The translations under genes were made by a program, and so were the position numbers. The notes below the pieces were generated by a model. It was given only the letters and a program-made list of their open reading frames with translations, made no database searches and was not told where the DNA came from. This document shows positions 6,625-28,327 of a DNA stretch of 29,750 nt, piece after piece (positions within the stretch are counted from its first letter, which is position 1; each line of letters opens with the position of its first letter). The DNA comes from a virus, in the IMG/VR virus record IMGVR_UViG_3300014497_000023, positions 1 to 29,750 of that record, one strand, 5' to 3'.

Positions 6625-6837
6625 TCGCTCGTCTTTCCGAGCTGTCTGCCAAAGACCTTCTCAACTTCGACGCCTCTATGCATCGATCTCGCTGATCCAG
6701 TCTCGCGCCACCCCGAAATCAAGTTTGAGGTCAGGGTGCGCGGGCTGCCGGTGTTGATTCCGTACGTCGCACTATCCGGCTATCGACGTCCAGGCTTCCC
6801 GAAGGCTGTCCTGGCTACAGGTAAATTCGAGGCATAA
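6606..6837 (+). pseudogene. Possible decayed small gene
   Basis: Two coding-like pieces lie in different frames. The first, out of frame with the 80-aa gene, reads VARLSELSAKDLLNFDAS and stops at TGA. The second, in frame with the 80-aa gene past its TAG, reads EVRVRGLPVLIPYVALSG then RRPGFPKAVLATGKFEA and ends at TAA (6835-6837). Joining them needs a one-base shift near 6680, and no start codon with a ribosome site fits either. It is best read as a frameshifted remnant, with moderate doubt. Confidence 0.35.
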
Positions 6838-20089: not shown

Positions 20090-20905
20090 ATGTCCGCAGT
20101 AATGAAACAGGCCGAGCACCTGCCGGCCATCTCCGAGGACGCCCTCGTCGAGGTGTTGAGCGGCAGTCTGTACCCAGGCGCGGCGCACAACTCGGTGGTG
20201 ATGGTGCTGGCCTACTGCAAGGCGGCTCAGCTCGACCCGATGCTCAAGCCGGTGCACATCGTTCCCATCTACCAAAAAGGCCGCGGGATGGTCGACACGG
20301 TCATGCCTGGCATCGGCCTGTACCGCATTCAGGCCGCGCGCACTGGGCAATACGCTGGAATCAGCGACCCGGAGTACGGGCCATCGATGACAGCCACGCT
20401 TGGCGGTGTAGAAGTCACGTATCCCGAGTGGTGTCGAGTGACGGTAAAGCGCCAGATGTCGAACGGCCTTGTCGCAGAGTTCACCGCGAACGAGCGCTGG
20501 CTGGAGAACTATGCGACGGCGAGCAAAGACACCGCAGCCCCGAACTCGATGTGGAAGCGACGCGCTTTCGCACAGCTCGCTAAGTGCGCCGAGGCCCAGG
20601 CGCTGCGCAAGGCCTTCCCCGAAGTTGGATCAGCGCCGACCGCTGACGAGATGGAGGGAAAAATATTCGATGAAGCGCCGCGCGACGTAAGTCCACAGCG
20701 ACAGCAAGAGCCTGAACCAGAAGGCCTACCGCCCTACTCCGATGATCTTCTGAAAGAGAACATCGTCAAGTGGCAGCCGTTGGTTGATGCCAACCGCACC
20801 AGCCCGGAACACCTGATCGCGACCATCAGCAGCAAGTACACGCTGAGCCCGGAGCAGATCGAAAAAATCCAGAACCTGAAAGCCATCGACGGAGACGCAG
20901 CATGA
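20090..20905 (+). CDS. bet: Single-strand annealing recombinase, Bet/RecT family
   Basis: This 271-aa protein resembles lambda Bet and RecT-type annealing proteins. The region KAAQLDPMLKPVHIVPIY, the central MPGIGLYRIQAARTGQYAGI and the later NSMWKRRAFAQLAKCAEAQA match the family core in order; the C-terminal third is linker plus a small acidic domain (LPPYSDDLLKENIVKW) likely to bind SSB or the exonuclease. AAGGA lies before the ATG. It overlaps the YqaJ exonuclease gene by four bases; together they form a two-part recombination system acting on DNA ends. Confidence 0.9.
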   Translation: MSAVMKQAEHLPAISEDALVEVLSGSLYPGAAHNSVVMVLAYCKAAQLDPMLKPVHIVPIYQKGRGMVDTVMPGIGLYRIQAARTGQYAGISDPEYGPSMTATLGGVEVTYPEWCRVTVKRQMSNGLVAEFTANERWLENYATASKDTAAPNSMWKRRAFAQLAKCAEAQALRKAFPEVGSAPTADEMEGKIFDEAPRDVSPQRQQEPEPEGLPPYSDDLLKENIVKWQPLVDANRTSPEHLIATISSKYTLSPEQIEKIQNLKAIDGDAA

Positions 20906-22524
20906 AAATTCACAACGTAGCTCAAGGCTCCGCCGAGTGGCACGCATTGCGCGCTCAGCACTTCACCGCCTCCGAGGCGCCCGCAATGATGGGCGCCTCG
21001 AGGTACCAGACCCGCACCGACCTGCTGACTATGAAGAAAACCGGCATTGCACCGGAGGTCACGCAGGCGCAGCAGTACATCTTCGACAAAGGCCACGCTA
21101 CTGAAGCGCTGGCACGGCCGCTGGTTGAGGTCATGATTGGCGAAGAGCTGTATCCAGTCGTGGGCACCGACGGCAATCTGCTCGCCTCCATGGACGGCGC
21201 AACGATGCTCGGAGAGACGCTTTTCGAGCACAAGCTCTGGAACGAATCGCTCGTGGCCCAAGTGAAGGCTGGCGAACTGGACCCGCACTACTACTGGCAG
21301 CTTGAGCAGCAACTGCTGGTGAGCGGCGCCGAGCGTGTGATCTTTGTTTGCTCAGACGGCACCCCTGAAAACTTCGTGCACATGGAATACCGACCTGTCG
21401 CTGGCCGCGCCGCCCAGTTGGTGGAAGGCTGGAAACAGTTCGAGGCCGACCTGGCCAGCTATGAATTGGCCGAGGCGCCGTCGATTGTCGTCGGCAAGGC
21501 CCCGGACGAGCTGCCAGCGCTACGCATCGAACTGACAGGCATGGTCACCGCGAGCAACCTCAAGGTGTTCGAGGAATCGGCGCTGGCGGTCATCGACTCG
21601 GTGAAGACCACACTGGTTACAGACCAGGACTTTGCCGACGCAAAGAAGGCCGTGAAATGGTGCGGCGATGTCGAGCAGGCAGTCGACACCGCGAAGAAGC
21701 AGGCTCTGTCGCAGACCCAGAGCATCGACGAGCTTTTCTCTGCACTGAACAGGATCAGTGCTCACGCCCGGGACACTCGCCTGAAGGTCAATAAACTGGT
21801 GCAGGCTCAAGAGCTGATGGTGAAGACCAACATCAAGCAGAAAGCTGAGCAGTCGCTGGCAGAGCACATCGCCGCGATCAACCAGACGTTGGGCCGTGTC
21901 ACGCTGCCATCCGTCGCGGCAGACTTCGCCGGCGCCATGAAGAATAAACGCAGCATTGCAAGCCTGCAGGATGCCGTCGATACCGAGCTGGCACGGGCAA
22001 AAATTGCCGCGAGCCAAACGGCGGACGCGATCCGCATCAATTTGGCCAGCTTGGCCGAACTTGCGGTCGATCACGCCTTTCTGTTCAACGACGTTCAGCA
22101 GCTGGTGATGAAGGCAAATGACGATCTGGTCGCGCTGATCAAGGTGCGGATATCGGAACACCAGAAGGCGGAGGAGCAGCAAGCCGAAGCGCAGCGCGAA
22201 CAGATCCGTCAGCAGGAGCTGCAGCGCATTGCGGACGAGGCGAAAGCCAGCGCATCGGTCGAGCCTGCACCAGTCACCAGCCCAGTGCCGGTGAAAGCCG
22301 CCGCACCGGTTCAGTCTTCATCGAAACCAGCGACCACAACCGCAGCGCCGGTGAACCTGCAAGCTGAGGTGTTCGATCTTGAAGCGCTGATCCATGCCGT
22401 TGCTGGCGGTCACGCTCCAATCTCGGTTCTAACCGTGGAATGGGAGAAGCTCGACGCAATGGTCGCCGCCCAAGGCTCTAAATTCAGCATGGCTGGCGTG
22501 AGGCTGGTCAAGGTGGCGGCATGA
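20902..22524 (+). CDS. YqaJ-type exonuclease with a long C-terminal extension
   Basis: Residues 1-190 are a YqaJ/lambda-Exo nuclease: QGSAEWHALRAQHFTASEAP, Glu68 in GHATEALARPL, Asp98 in SMDG, Glu109-x-Lys111 in FEHKLW, and the Gln motif WQLEQQL. It would resect double-strand ends to give the substrate for Bet. The remaining 350 residues are mostly coiled-coil-like helices (about 200-440) and then an Ala/Pro/Val linker (450-490) with a small end domain. Total length (540 aa) is more than double that of lambda Exo, so the extension is a distinct module of unknown role. Confidence 0.88.
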   Translation: MKIHNVAQGSAEWHALRAQHFTASEAPAMMGASRYQTRTDLLTMKKTGIAPEVTQAQQYIFDKGHATEALARPLVEVMIGEELYPVVGTDGNLLASMDGATMLGETLFEHKLWNESLVAQVKAGELDPHYYWQLEQQLLVSGAERVIFVCSDGTPENFVHMEYRPVAGRAAQLVEGWKQFEADLASYELAEAPSIVVGKAPDELPALRIELTGMVTASNLKVFEESALAVIDSVKTTLVTDQDFADAKKAVKWCGDVEQAVDTAKKQALSQTQSIDELFSALNRISAHARDTRLKVNKLVQAQELMVKTNIKQKAEQSLAEHIAAINQTLGRVTLPSVAADFAGAMKNKRSIASLQDAVDTELARAKIAASQTADAIRINLASLAELAVDHAFLFNDVQQLVMKANDDLVALIKVRISEHQKAEEQQAEAQREQIRQQELQRIADEAKASASVEPAPVTSPVPVKAAAPVQSSSKPATTTAAPVNLQAEVFDLEALIHAVAGGHAPISVLTVEWEKLDAMVAAQGSKFSMAGVRLVKVAA

Positions 22525-23224: not shown

Positions 23225-23412
23225 GACGAACCAACAATCGGGCGGCCACGCGCCGCCGACAGACCTGGCTGGACTTGCCGGCCAGCGGAATTGAAGAGGT
23301 AGGCCTTGGCCGAAGTATTGGAGCCGACGAAAGAAGCGATCAAGCAGAAGAAAAAGCGCGAGAAGGCTGCAGCAAAGGATGCTGCATTGGGCGTCGAGAG
23401 ATTTACGGTTGA
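23221..23412 (+). CDS. Possible small basic protein overlapping the next gene
   Basis: A GTG start overlaps the previous stop (GTGA). The first 28 residues (RRTNNRAATRRRQTWLDLPA and on) look coding and fill a gap that otherwise lacks a gene; the last 36 codons run through the next gene in another frame and end CSKGCCIGRREIYG, which looks like shadow. Either a genuine long overlap or a shortened gene. Confidence 0.35.
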   Translation: MRRTNNRAATRRRQTWLDLPASGIEEVGLGRSIGADERSDQAEEKAREGCSKGCCIGRREIYG

Positions 23413-23668
23413 GGTCGCCGGAGTGTTCAAGCCTGACCTGAAGGCAGTTATGAAGGCCCACGGCTTCAACAACCAGCAGGAGGTGTATCAGAACCTGCTG
23501 CGCAACCTGATAGCGGCTGACTTCGAAACCCAGGCCAAGATGCTGAAGTGTGTCACGACACCTTTTGTTCTTACTGAAAAGGTGTCGCGCATAATTCAGG
23601 CCGCCGGAATAAAGTCGCTCACGGACGATCCGCCAGAGCCTGACGACGAAATCGATATCCCGAAATAG
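23306..23668 (+). CDS. Hypothetical early protein (120 aa)
   Basis: Not recognised. The start is a TTG with GAGG seven bases upstream; no ATG or GTG fits better. A Lys-rich helix (KEAIKQKKKREKAAAKDAA) is followed by a folded core (VFKPDLKAVMKAHGFNNQQE, then YQNLLRNLIAADFE) and an acidic tail. The core recalls small phage DNA-binding proteins, without a firm match. Residues about 82-95 (VTTPFVLTEKVSR) are encoded by element copy B. It converges with the AbiC-like gene, eight bases apart. Confidence 0.6.
   Translation: MAEVLEPTKEAIKQKKKREKAAAKDAALGVERFTVEVAGVFKPDLKAVMKAHGFNNQQEVYQNLLRNLIAADFETQAKMLKCVTTPFVLTEKVSRIIQAAGIKSLTDDPPEPDDEIDIPK
23550..23589. repeat. Dispersed double-palindrome element, copy B
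   Basis: GTGTCACGACACC, TTTT, ten bases, AAAA and GGTGTCGCG reproduce copy A's layout at the same 40-bp length; the ten central bases differ. It lies inside the 120-aa gene, in the same reading frame relative to the element as copy A in the antirepressor gene. Confidence 0.75.
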
Positions 23669-23676
23669 AACTACTT

Positions 23677-24333
23677 CTAAGGCTCTCCGCTATCCAATAT
23701 TTCCAGCATTCGCGGAGCAAATTTCTCTTTTACCTCGCGAACATCCGAAAACTCAGCAACGGAAAGCTCGAGGGCTAGGATCTTAAAGGCTGCAACTTTT
23801 TTTCTCGCCTCATCACACTTATCTCGGTATTTGGCTTCTGCAGCTATGCCGTCAAGAATGGGCAAATGACCTGATGTAGCTCTCTCAGCTGCGGCGAACA
23901 TTTCATTTGCATCGAGTCTGAACTCGTTACTGTAGCTCTCTATCAAATTCAGGATAGAAGTCTGGTAGGCCAAAACCTTTGCCCTGTTAGCTTCAGACTT
24001 TGCAAGCGCCAGCTGTTCGTCTTGCTTGAGGGAATCGAGACGCTGAAACTTTAGTAATTCTTCAAATTCGTGCTTTTGAACATCTAGAAGTTCTCTTTGC
24101 ATATATACAGTTTTCAGTACTGCTAAAAGCGTTACAAAAGACACGAGTGGGCCAAAAACACCGCCGATGTATCCACCAAAGTTAGACCACTCCACTGAGT
24201 GAAAGGCCAAGGTTCCGCCAAACCTATATCGGTATGCTACGACCGCCGCGATGACCGCCAACATCAACGCAATTACCAAAAATAATAAAAACGATAAAAA
24301 CCGATCCTTCGCACGCTGCTGGCTCTGGGTCAT
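23677..24333 (-). CDS. Putative abortive-infection membrane protein (AbiC-like)
   Basis: This 218-aa protein has two membrane segments (about 13-33, FLLFLVIALMLAVIAAVVAY; and 54-73) joined by the motif WSNFGGYIGGVFGPLVSF, which is typical of putative phage abortive-infection (putAbiC) proteins. A long charged coiled-coil-like cytoplasmic part follows (MQRELLDVQKHEFEELLKFQ onward). AGAGAGG stands before the ATG. It is on the opposite strand to the operon and AT-richer, so it is probably lysogenically expressed cargo that blocks other phages. Family assignment rests on the membrane motif. Confidence 0.65.
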   Translation of the reverse strand: MTQSQQRAKDRFLSFLLFLVIALMLAVIAAVVAYRYRFGGTLAFHSVEWSNFGGYIGGVFGPLVSFVTLLAVLKTVYMQRELLDVQKHEFEELLKFQRLDSLKQDEQLALAKSEANRAKVLAYQTSILNLIESYSNEFRLDANEMFAAAERATSGHLPILDGIAAEAKYRDKCDEARKKVAAFKILALELSVAEFSDVREVKEKFAPRMLEILDSGEP

Positions 24334-24375
24334 GCCTCTCTGCCTCTGAATGCTCTCAAGGAGTTAGATCTTCCA

Positions 24376-24510
24376 TTACTTTATCACTTCACGCCAGCCG
24401 GCATGCTCGGCGCCGAACTGACGCGGTGGGGCAGGATGGCTCACCGCAGGTTGACGTCTTTTCATGGTTCGGAGGACTCGATCTAAGTTAATTTCCATCA
24501 CGAAGATCAC
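24376..24510 (-). CDS. Small protein (44 aa) between the two membrane-protein genes
   Basis: A frame from GTG (24510, with GAGGAA five bases upstream) reads MIFVMEINLDRVLRTMKRRQ then PAVSHPAPPRQFGAEHAGWR and EVIK before TAA. The composition is protein-like, basic and proline-containing, unlike random sequence. Start could also be the ATG at 24498. It may be the surviving C-terminus of a longer gene. Function unknown. Confidence 0.4.
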   Translation of the reverse strand: MIFVMEINLDRVLRTMKRRQPAVSHPAPPRQFGAEHAGWREVIK

Positions 24511-24521
24511 CGCTTCCTCTT

Positions 24522-25214
24522 TTACCGTTGTGAACTTAGGAATAAATCGATTCGGGGTATAGACAGAGTACTCAAAAAGGATTCGTAATCATCGATCCAA
24601 GCGGTGACTTCCGAATTCGTGATCGAGTGCTTAATCAATATCTCCCGCATTTCTGTTGGACTAGGCACTTCCCAAGCATCGATGTTCGCCGTGTCATGAA
24701 TTTCTTTCGAAGCCGCCAACTCATCATCACCAGCATCAGGATTTATTGTGGAGAATGACTTCCGCCCTTCGACACCCTGGCGTATCAGGCGGTAATACAT
24801 GATCGAAACACCTTTGACCCAGTTACCCTGAGCGCCTTGGATTTGTTCCTTGCTTGCCCCTAATGCGGTTAAACATTCAATAATTTTCCTATGAAGCTCG
24901 AATTTAGCTCTCACATCCATCCCGCCCATGAACTCGGTGGCGATGAGTAGCGATAGAGTCATGTTCGAAAGTTCAGCGCCTAACGTCCGAAGCTGCTCAA
25001 CCGTCGCATGCGCCTCGCTGATTGCCTCTCGAAGCTTCGCCTTTAAGGGGCCGACAGACAGTTCCTCCAGCAAATCAATTTTTGAAAAAAGCACCGAAAG
25101 TGTTCCAGATACAAAACAAAGAACCCCGAACTTCGCCGAGTCGAGAAAGACTGCAAGCGGCACGGGCGCGAAAACGGCAATCAATACACCCACCCAAAAC
25201 AGAAAATTTTTCAT
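24522..25214 (-). CDS. Hypothetical membrane-anchored protein (230 aa)
   Basis: Not recognised. Two hydrophobic segments at the N-terminus (about 4-24, FLFWVGVLIAVFAPVPLAVF; and 28-45) are followed by a helical stretch (PLKAKLREAISEAHATVEQL) and a mixed cytoplasmic domain of about 150 residues. The layout (two spans, coiled coil, cytoplasmic domain) resembles the AbiC-like neighbour. Both are AT-richer and reversed relative to the operon, so they may have arrived together as an exclusion pair. No ribosome site is obvious before the ATG. Confidence 0.6.
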   Translation of the reverse strand: MKNFLFWVGVLIAVFAPVPLAVFLDSAKFGVLCFVSGTLSVLFSKIDLLEELSVGPLKAKLREAISEAHATVEQLRTLGAELSNMTLSLLIATEFMGGMDVRAKFELHRKIIECLTALGASKEQIQGAQGNWVKGVSIMYYRLIRQGVEGRKSFSTINPDAGDDELAASKEIHDTANIDAWEVPSPTEMREILIKHSITNSEVTAWIDDYESFLSTLSIPRIDLFLSSQR

Positions 25215-25351
25215 CCATGTCCACCAAAGCCATTTAGTTACCGATCATAGCTGAACCGAGCAAATTAGGCGCTCGCTCTTGGCCCACTAGCTCGTCTCAA
25301 GTCCTCCCCGACCCCTCCACCGCCCGGGCATGCCCCGGCATAGGACGCCCC

Positions 25352-25939
25352 ATGCCCACAGAAAACAAACCGGCCGACCCGCTGCCGACATTGGCGACCG
25401 GCGCTTCGCTTGATGCGTCGACCTGGACTGACTTCGTCGAACGCCTCCGTTATCACTGCAACGGCGCCGGCGTTAATTGGCACCACACTGCGGCCGCGAT
25501 TTTCACCGTGCAGACCAAGCGATTCGATTACGGCTACGAAATCGACTACGCGGAAGGCCGAGTTGTCTGTCTGGAGGATCAGCGCTGGTTCAGTCCGAAA
25601 GAATACTGGGAAGACCTCGACGACGAGGAGCGCGCGGAAATCGACCAAGCCCTGATGGCTGATCGGGAATGCGGCTTCATGGATCTGGACGAGGACGACC
25701 AGTGGGAATATCTCGCCGAGTGCGATGACCACACCGTCACCGGCTGGAACAAGCGCTGGGAGATCGTGAACAGCCACTTCACCAGAGAGGCTGCGGAGGC
25801 TTTCATCAGACGCAAGCAGCACGACTACGGCGAAATGCGTGTCTACGTCGAATCGCAGTACTACGCCTGGGAGTTCGAAGCCATCAAGAAAGCGATCCTC
25901 GACGGCACGCTGACGTACACGCCGAAAGCAGAGTCGTAA
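25352..25939 (+). CDS. Hypothetical phage protein (195 aa)
   Basis: Not recognised. The ATG follows a GC-rich hairpin-like stretch (CCCGGGCATGCCCCGG) with no strong ribosome site. The protein is acidic and aromatic-rich: VERLRYHCNGAGVNWHHTAA, YGYEIDYAEGRVVC, DDEERAEIDQALMADRECGF, and YVESQYYAWEFEAIKKAILD. GC content returns to the phage norm here, so this resumes the early operon after the AT-rich insertion. Confidence 0.65.
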   Translation: MPTENKPADPLPTLATGASLDASTWTDFVERLRYHCNGAGVNWHHTAAAIFTVQTKRFDYGYEIDYAEGRVVCLEDQRWFSPKEYWEDLDDEERAEIDQALMADRECGFMDLDEDDQWEYLAECDDHTVTGWNKRWEIVNSHFTREAAEAFIRRKQHDYGEMRVYVESQYYAWEFEAIKKAILDGTLTYTPKAES

Positions 25940-27811: not shown

Positions 27812-27952
27812 TCAGGTTCTTTTTTTCGTAGCCAAGCCAGCAACCATCAGCACCAGCCCCGGAATCCAAAGACCCGGGGCAGTAATCGCAACGCCACAGA
27901 CGGTCAGCGGCAGACCGGATAAGAACAACGAGTTTTGAAATGCCTTTTTCAT
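27812..27952 (-). CDS. Small membrane protein (46 aa)
   Basis: The ATG at 27952 (MKKAFQNSLFLSG) has GGAGAGG five bases upstream, favoured over a longer in-frame start. Two hydrophobic segments (FLSGLPLTVCGVAITA and LWIPGLVLMVAGLA) end in a basic TKKRT. Reversed relative to the operon and next to another membrane protein gene; likely cargo. Confidence 0.5.
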   Translation of the reverse strand: MKKAFQNSLFLSGLPLTVCGVAITAPGLWIPGLVLMVAGLATKKRT

Positions 27953-28027
27953 AGATGCCTCTCCATAAGAAAACATCTCATTTAACCACAAAGCCTGCCG
28001 GCGTAAGGCCAAGCCGCGGTTAATCAC

Positions 28028-28327
28028 TCAAAACCAATTCAGGACTCGCAACACTCTCGCGAATGTTCGCTCGCCTGCCCCGCACGTCAGCAAGACAAGG
28101 CCGCTTCCAGCGACGACAAAAATAAAACCTCCAACTGCATCGACGGCGATCAGAAATATTCCCAGCGCCAGGAATGCGGCACCGAGCACAGCCAGCGCCG
28201 TCCGGCTTTGCTTTTGCTCCGGATACTTGTTGAACATTCGTTTACTCGGCATCAATTGCGCATCGATCAACTGTAGACCAAGCGCAACCATCCAATAGCA
28301 ACCAACTTCTGCCGCCACGCGCGGCAT
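28028..28327 (-). CDS. Hypothetical membrane protein (up to 99 aa)
   Basis: Two clear membrane segments (TALAVLGAAFLALGIFLIAV and GGFIFVVAGSGLVLLTCGAG) and a basic C-terminus. The long form starts at 28327; a shorter form from an internal ATG (28252, MPSKRMFNK) is equally likely because neither has a good ribosome site. It diverges from the DUF4224 gene. Function unknown. Confidence 0.45.
   Translation of the reverse strand: MPRVAAEVGCYWMVALGLQLIDAQLMPSKRMFNKYPEQKQSRTALAVLGAAFLALGIFLIAVDAVGGFIFVVAGSGLVLLTCGAGERTFARVLRVLNWF

Follow-up and report, generated by a model that had tools for sequence, protein, structure and literature searches.

Prophage moron, or lysogenic-conversion, loci with phage-exclusion genes include rexAB of lambda and sieA of P22. 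In moron loci such as the Z region of P2, variable accessory genes of deviating composition lie between conserved genes. A prophage-encoded defence may also consist of a single gene, as is the case for BstA, which is expressed in the lysogen (PMC8585504). As to the exchange of genes, recombination at short conserved boundary sequences was proposed for other phages (PMC3029335), and in cluster K mycobacteriophages start-associated sequences are conserved right at the gene starts (PMC3203893).

The locus analysed here, with two genes named A and B, belongs to an already known class, the prophage accessory hotspot. As in moron loci, its variable cargo of deviating composition lies between conserved phage genes. 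However, unlike loci of the P2 Z type, it consists of two adjacent slots bordered by start tags that are common to non-homologous genes, and phage exclusion is only predicted. It is the architecture of these borders that is of interest. Judging by their sequences, A and B represent two cargo families that have no described family in the libraries searched. BstA is their functional analogue only, as a prophage single-gene defence expressed in the lysogen (PMC8585504), whereas A and B are predicted membrane proteins and no BstA-like match was found.

The window, that is, the whole analysed stretch of 29,750 bases, is identical to the viral record IMGVR_UViG_3300014497_000023. The record has a tRNA-Leu gene at the prophage end, with an integrase adjoining. 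We infer a Pseudomonas-type prophage, and with it the host genus, from the early region, which is related to Pseudomonas phage DNA. The AT-rich reverse-strand island reported in the preliminary description is indeed present, with ORFs of 218 and 230 codons (A and B) and a GC content of 47.5%, against 60.7% in the left flank and 56.0% in the right one. Only about 1% of the 1538-bp windows of the record are as low in GC. The features of the locus are listed in Table 1.

Table 1. Features of the A-B locus and its surroundings (positions in the window)
Feature	Position	Strand	Comment
Genes of RecT-like single-strand annealing protein and RecE-like exonuclease	20090..22524	+	could mediate recombination at the short tags (presumed role)
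o120 (phrog_5439)	23306..23668	+	conserved; borders slot 1 on the left; convergent with gene A
Gene A, 218 aa	23677..24333	-	two predicted N-terminal membrane spans and long helical tail; slot-1 cargo
44-aa GTG frame, not a gene	24376..24510	-	antisense to the deletion scar; in no relative
Left half of start tag E1 (CACTTCACGCCAGCCGGC)	24384..24402	+	usual right border of slot 1, truncated by deletion
Methylase remnant, last 28 codons and stop (ARRRTDAVGQDGSPQVDVF...*)	24405..24491	+	corresponds by homology to the C-terminal end of the N6/N4 methylase (474 aa) in L002
Gene B, 230 aa	24522..25214	-	predicted N-terminal membrane hairpin and helical C-terminal domain; slot-2 cargo
Start tag E2 (CCACCGCCCGGGCATGCCCCGGCATAGGACGCCCC-ATG-CCCACAG)	25317..25361	+	right border of slot 2; ribosome-binding site, start and first codons of o195
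o195 (phrog_3205), forward early gene	25352..25939	+	start lies inside E2

By the pattern of substitutions, both A and B are real genes, each under purifying selection, since the differences from their relatives fall mostly on third codon positions and the dN/dS values are low (A, about 0.12-0.14; B, about 0.03-0.07, with dS of B saturated in the comparison with L003). Each protein has two predicted N-terminal spans, as had been proposed, at residues about 15-33 and 52-73 in A and 4-22 and 31-49 in B, the second span being barely over the threshold in both cases. As for the proposed coiled-coil parts, the AlphaFold model of A shows long helices beyond the membrane part, and most of the protein is long helix. 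The model of B shows no obvious coiled coil: its C-terminal half is a helical domain of moderate to good confidence, and its membrane half is poor. Thus the similar layout earlier ascribed to the two proteins comes down to two spans and a helical tail, and no relationship between the sequences of A and B was found. Neither protein matches the PADLOC-DB models. Sequence and fold searches against PDB produced no solved-structure match and no fold at E<=0.001, a result to be read with the mostly helical model of A and the low confidence of the membrane half of B in mind. No consensus sigma-70 promoter and no convincing terminator were found around either gene; the consensus may not fit Pseudomonas promoters.

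Relatives of A were found initially on nine viral contigs and then on 21, corresponding to about 20 other prophages. The claim that A has a putAbiC-type motif stands as far as the N-terminal membrane module is concerned. Residues 34-95 of A align with the N-terminal membrane module of the putAbiC protein of L087 (hhalign probability 95.4%, E 1.9e-8), and the two proteins have in common the two-span arrangement and the signature W-x-x-FG-x-Y-x-GG-xxx-P. This module falls outside the Pfam model PF16872, and membership in putAbiC was defined by a match to that domain above the cut-off (22 bits). The domain is matched in the L087 protein (residues 196-271), encoded directly after o120, and in a second protein (217-310) encoded within the same variable region in L073. 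A itself has no PF16872 match at E<=1, A and its nine relatives have none at E<=0.1, and the tail of A is a different long helix. A was therefore ruled out as a member of putAbiC. A weaker, distant match to its N-terminal part was observed in ORF1 of the Z region of P2-EC45, annotated as a putative lysogenic conversion protein.

One could suppose that A arose from a putAbiC protein by degeneration and is inactive, having retained the N-terminal module and lost the C-terminal domain together with its PF16872 match. This is very improbable, as the close relatives hold the same full-length tail, likewise lacking PF16872, and dN/dS is low. Both observations argue for a protein that is maintained and differs in its tail.

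B is rare. Its three viral relatives all come from short metagenome contigs, and one of these contigs ends inside B; searches of genome contigs and of phage records yielded none. A distant relative (32% identity) is encoded by the Burkholderia ambifaria plasmid pBMC401.

The position of the two genes was considered using o120 as an anchor. This gene was found in no fewer than 80 viral contigs, most of which differ in the genes downstream of it; 80 contigs were fetched, their gene order was compared, and the slot borders were read base by base. Slot 1 lies between o120 and E1, the start tag of the forward gene that follows, and slot 2 between that forward gene and the tag E2. In six close A-bearing relatives the E1 border reads CACTTCACGCCAGCCGGCGAGGATCCCCT-ATG-TCCGCACAACAG or a close variant, with L008 diverging past the ATG. 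B sits after the forward gene and before E2 in L002, L003 and L004, with an extra short stretch in L003. By this reading of the borders in the relatives, A is cargo of slot 1 and B of slot 2. The assignment to slot 1 is not strict for more distant A-like proteins, one of which lies directly before E2 in L089.

The position after o120 is highly variable. The first gene there is on the reverse strand in 43 cases, and these fall into 32 protein clusters; a membrane span is predicted in 21 of the 43 proteins, and the median GC content is 0.49. Among the 84 reverse-strand clusters of the variable region, two match putAbiC and single members match RiboL-PSP HEPN, NucC, PD-T7-4 and AbiP; DUF4145 is also among the matches of the slot proteins, and most clusters remain unmatched.

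Two other kinds of occupants were observed. A 335-aa NdpA-like nucleoid-associated protein is a recurrent slot occupant, encoded directly after the o120 homologue in L095 (Pseudomonas phage PseuP_224, where it is annotated as NdpA), L052, L083 and L084; the L024 member of this family matches PF04245. The first 3-4 kb after o120 contain a diversity-generating retroelement (DGR) in L027, L031, L051, L052, L056, L063, L072 and L086. It consists of variable-protein genes (mostly two) with ends of the WSSSQRSA...RPVR type, a reverse transcriptase (PF00078 in L027) and, in most cases, an Avd-like gene. The template and variable repeats, about 100 bp long, differ almost solely at template A (11 of 11 mismatches in L027). 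The location of a DGR in the early region, not in a tail gene, looks unusual.

In the window the border between the two slots is damaged. The sequence matches the A-bearing relatives up to exactly 24402 and the B-bearing L002 from 24405. The six A-bearing relatives run on into GAGGATCCCCT/TTCT-ATG, whereas the window does not. The short forward frame that follows the junction aligns with the C-terminus of the methylase located before B in L002, which carries PF01555, with a local alignment score of 47 (five shuffles gave 35 at most). The simplest reading of these sequences is that A was joined to B by loss of the intervening forward gene, apparently a DNA methylase, through deletion or unequal recombination.

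The same junction bears on the 44-aa frame between A and B, which had been proposed as a possible third part. It straddles 24402/24405 and is encoded by no relative in the fetched loci, and searches of phage records gave only weak matches, probably due to chance (best E 0.09). The motif AGAGGA upstream of its GTG codon does not outweigh this evidence. The 44-aa peptide was thus rejected as a third component, being a frame without relatives in antisense to the scar.

The preliminary description had further suggested that A and B, with or without this peptide, form a two- or three-part exclusion system. Such a unit would agree with the fact that both proteins are predicted to be membrane-anchored and helical and are encoded side by side on the same strand. 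However, co-occurrence, proposed as a check, was observed in no record tested other than the window: whole-record searches found B in all three B-bearing records, used as positive controls, and in none of the A-bearing ones, and A is absent from the three B-bearing contigs. Since one of these contigs is cut inside B, its far side is uninformative, and as all of them are short, absence of A there means absence in the vicinity of B. Moreover, the two genes originate from different slots and were apparently joined by a deletion, each is under purifying selection relative to relatives that do not have the other, and the 44-aa frame has no relatives. Hence the A-B unit is rejected, its residual probability being very low, and A and B are considered to be independent cargo genes from two neighbouring slots. 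The multi-part system is replaced by a simpler and testable picture of neighbouring slots that hold many different proteins, several known defence proteins among them.

The start tags, which are common to non-homologous genes, are of more interest than the A-B pair. At up to four mismatches, 22 sites of E1 and 17 sites of E2 were found in about 98 sequences, nearly all of them where a forward gene begins, and the reversed patterns produced no sites. Both tags contain a ribosome-binding site, the start codon and the first codons. A single tag may precede genes that are not homologous: those preceded by E1 encode C5-methylases and DUF2786/DUF7168 proteins and, at up to eight mismatches, also N6/N4 methylases, and those preceded by E2 are o195 and members of several other families. 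Just 5' of the ribosome-binding site E2 has a 10-bp perfect palindrome, GGGCATGCCC. The RNA structures predicted for the E2 and inter-gene regions were no better than those of shuffled sequences, and a role of E2 as a folded RNA is therefore unlikely.

Like the boundary sequences at mosaic junctions (PMC3029335), E1 and E2 are short, lie at gene borders and could direct homologous recombination; unlike them, they carry the first codons of the gene that follows, together with its ribosome-binding site and start codon. Conservation right at gene starts is shared with the start-associated sequences of cluster K mycobacteriophages (PMC3203893). However, the latter occur at many numbered sites per genome, whereas E2 is usually found once per whole record, before different genes in different genomes. 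Slot genes may be swapped by homologous recombination at these short tags, and the phage's own RecT/RecE pair possibly drives the process. A bolder version is that this pair exchanges both the non-homologous early genes and the adjacent reverse-strand exclusion genes via E1 and E2, and that A and B are undescribed single-gene membrane exclusion families spread in this way; we regard it as tentative and rather doubtful.

As for the function, our best guess, held with moderate confidence, is that A and B each provide single-gene superinfection exclusion or abortive infection. Such a role seems the most likely because some slot neighbours match defence families and A shares the membrane module of putAbiC. 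On balance, we favour as reasonably probable the reading in which A and B are independent lysogenic-conversion genes from two slots, joined by loss of the methylase, each of which blocks phages alone. Both genes would be expressed in the lysogen, in the orientation opposite to that of the early operon, and their products would sit in the inner membrane, where each would act on its own against other phages, A by analogy with the putAbiC proteins that have the same membrane module. Selection maintains each gene, whereas the content of the slots varies freely among relatives.

The lack of a defence-family match for most slot proteins counts against a defence role, and the slots may hold other genes of lysogen fitness. 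The main rival is accordingly that A and B are non-defence accessories of the lysogen, involved in membrane stress, host physiology or surface change, or else modulators of induction of their own prophage. This agrees with the absence of matches of A and B in the defence library and with the lack of a defence annotation for most slot proteins, but leaves aside the recognised defence proteins among the slot neighbours and the module that A has in common with a putAbiC protein; we consider it possible, but clearly less probable than exclusion. The slots with their borders (o120, E1, E2) offer a means of finding new phage-exclusion genes in Pseudomonas prophages, and a test case for the trade in such genes among temperate phages.

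Two observations concern other parts of the window. The region 6743-6820 on the reverse strand matches the Proteo-phage-1 RNA (RF03044) of Rfam with 76.4 bits. Near the integrase, two more short ORFs with hydrophobic stretches, of 71 and 99 aa, lie on the reverse strand at 27812-28327. The 99-aa ORF has a relative in L005 (79%), and the pair possibly marks another cargo position.
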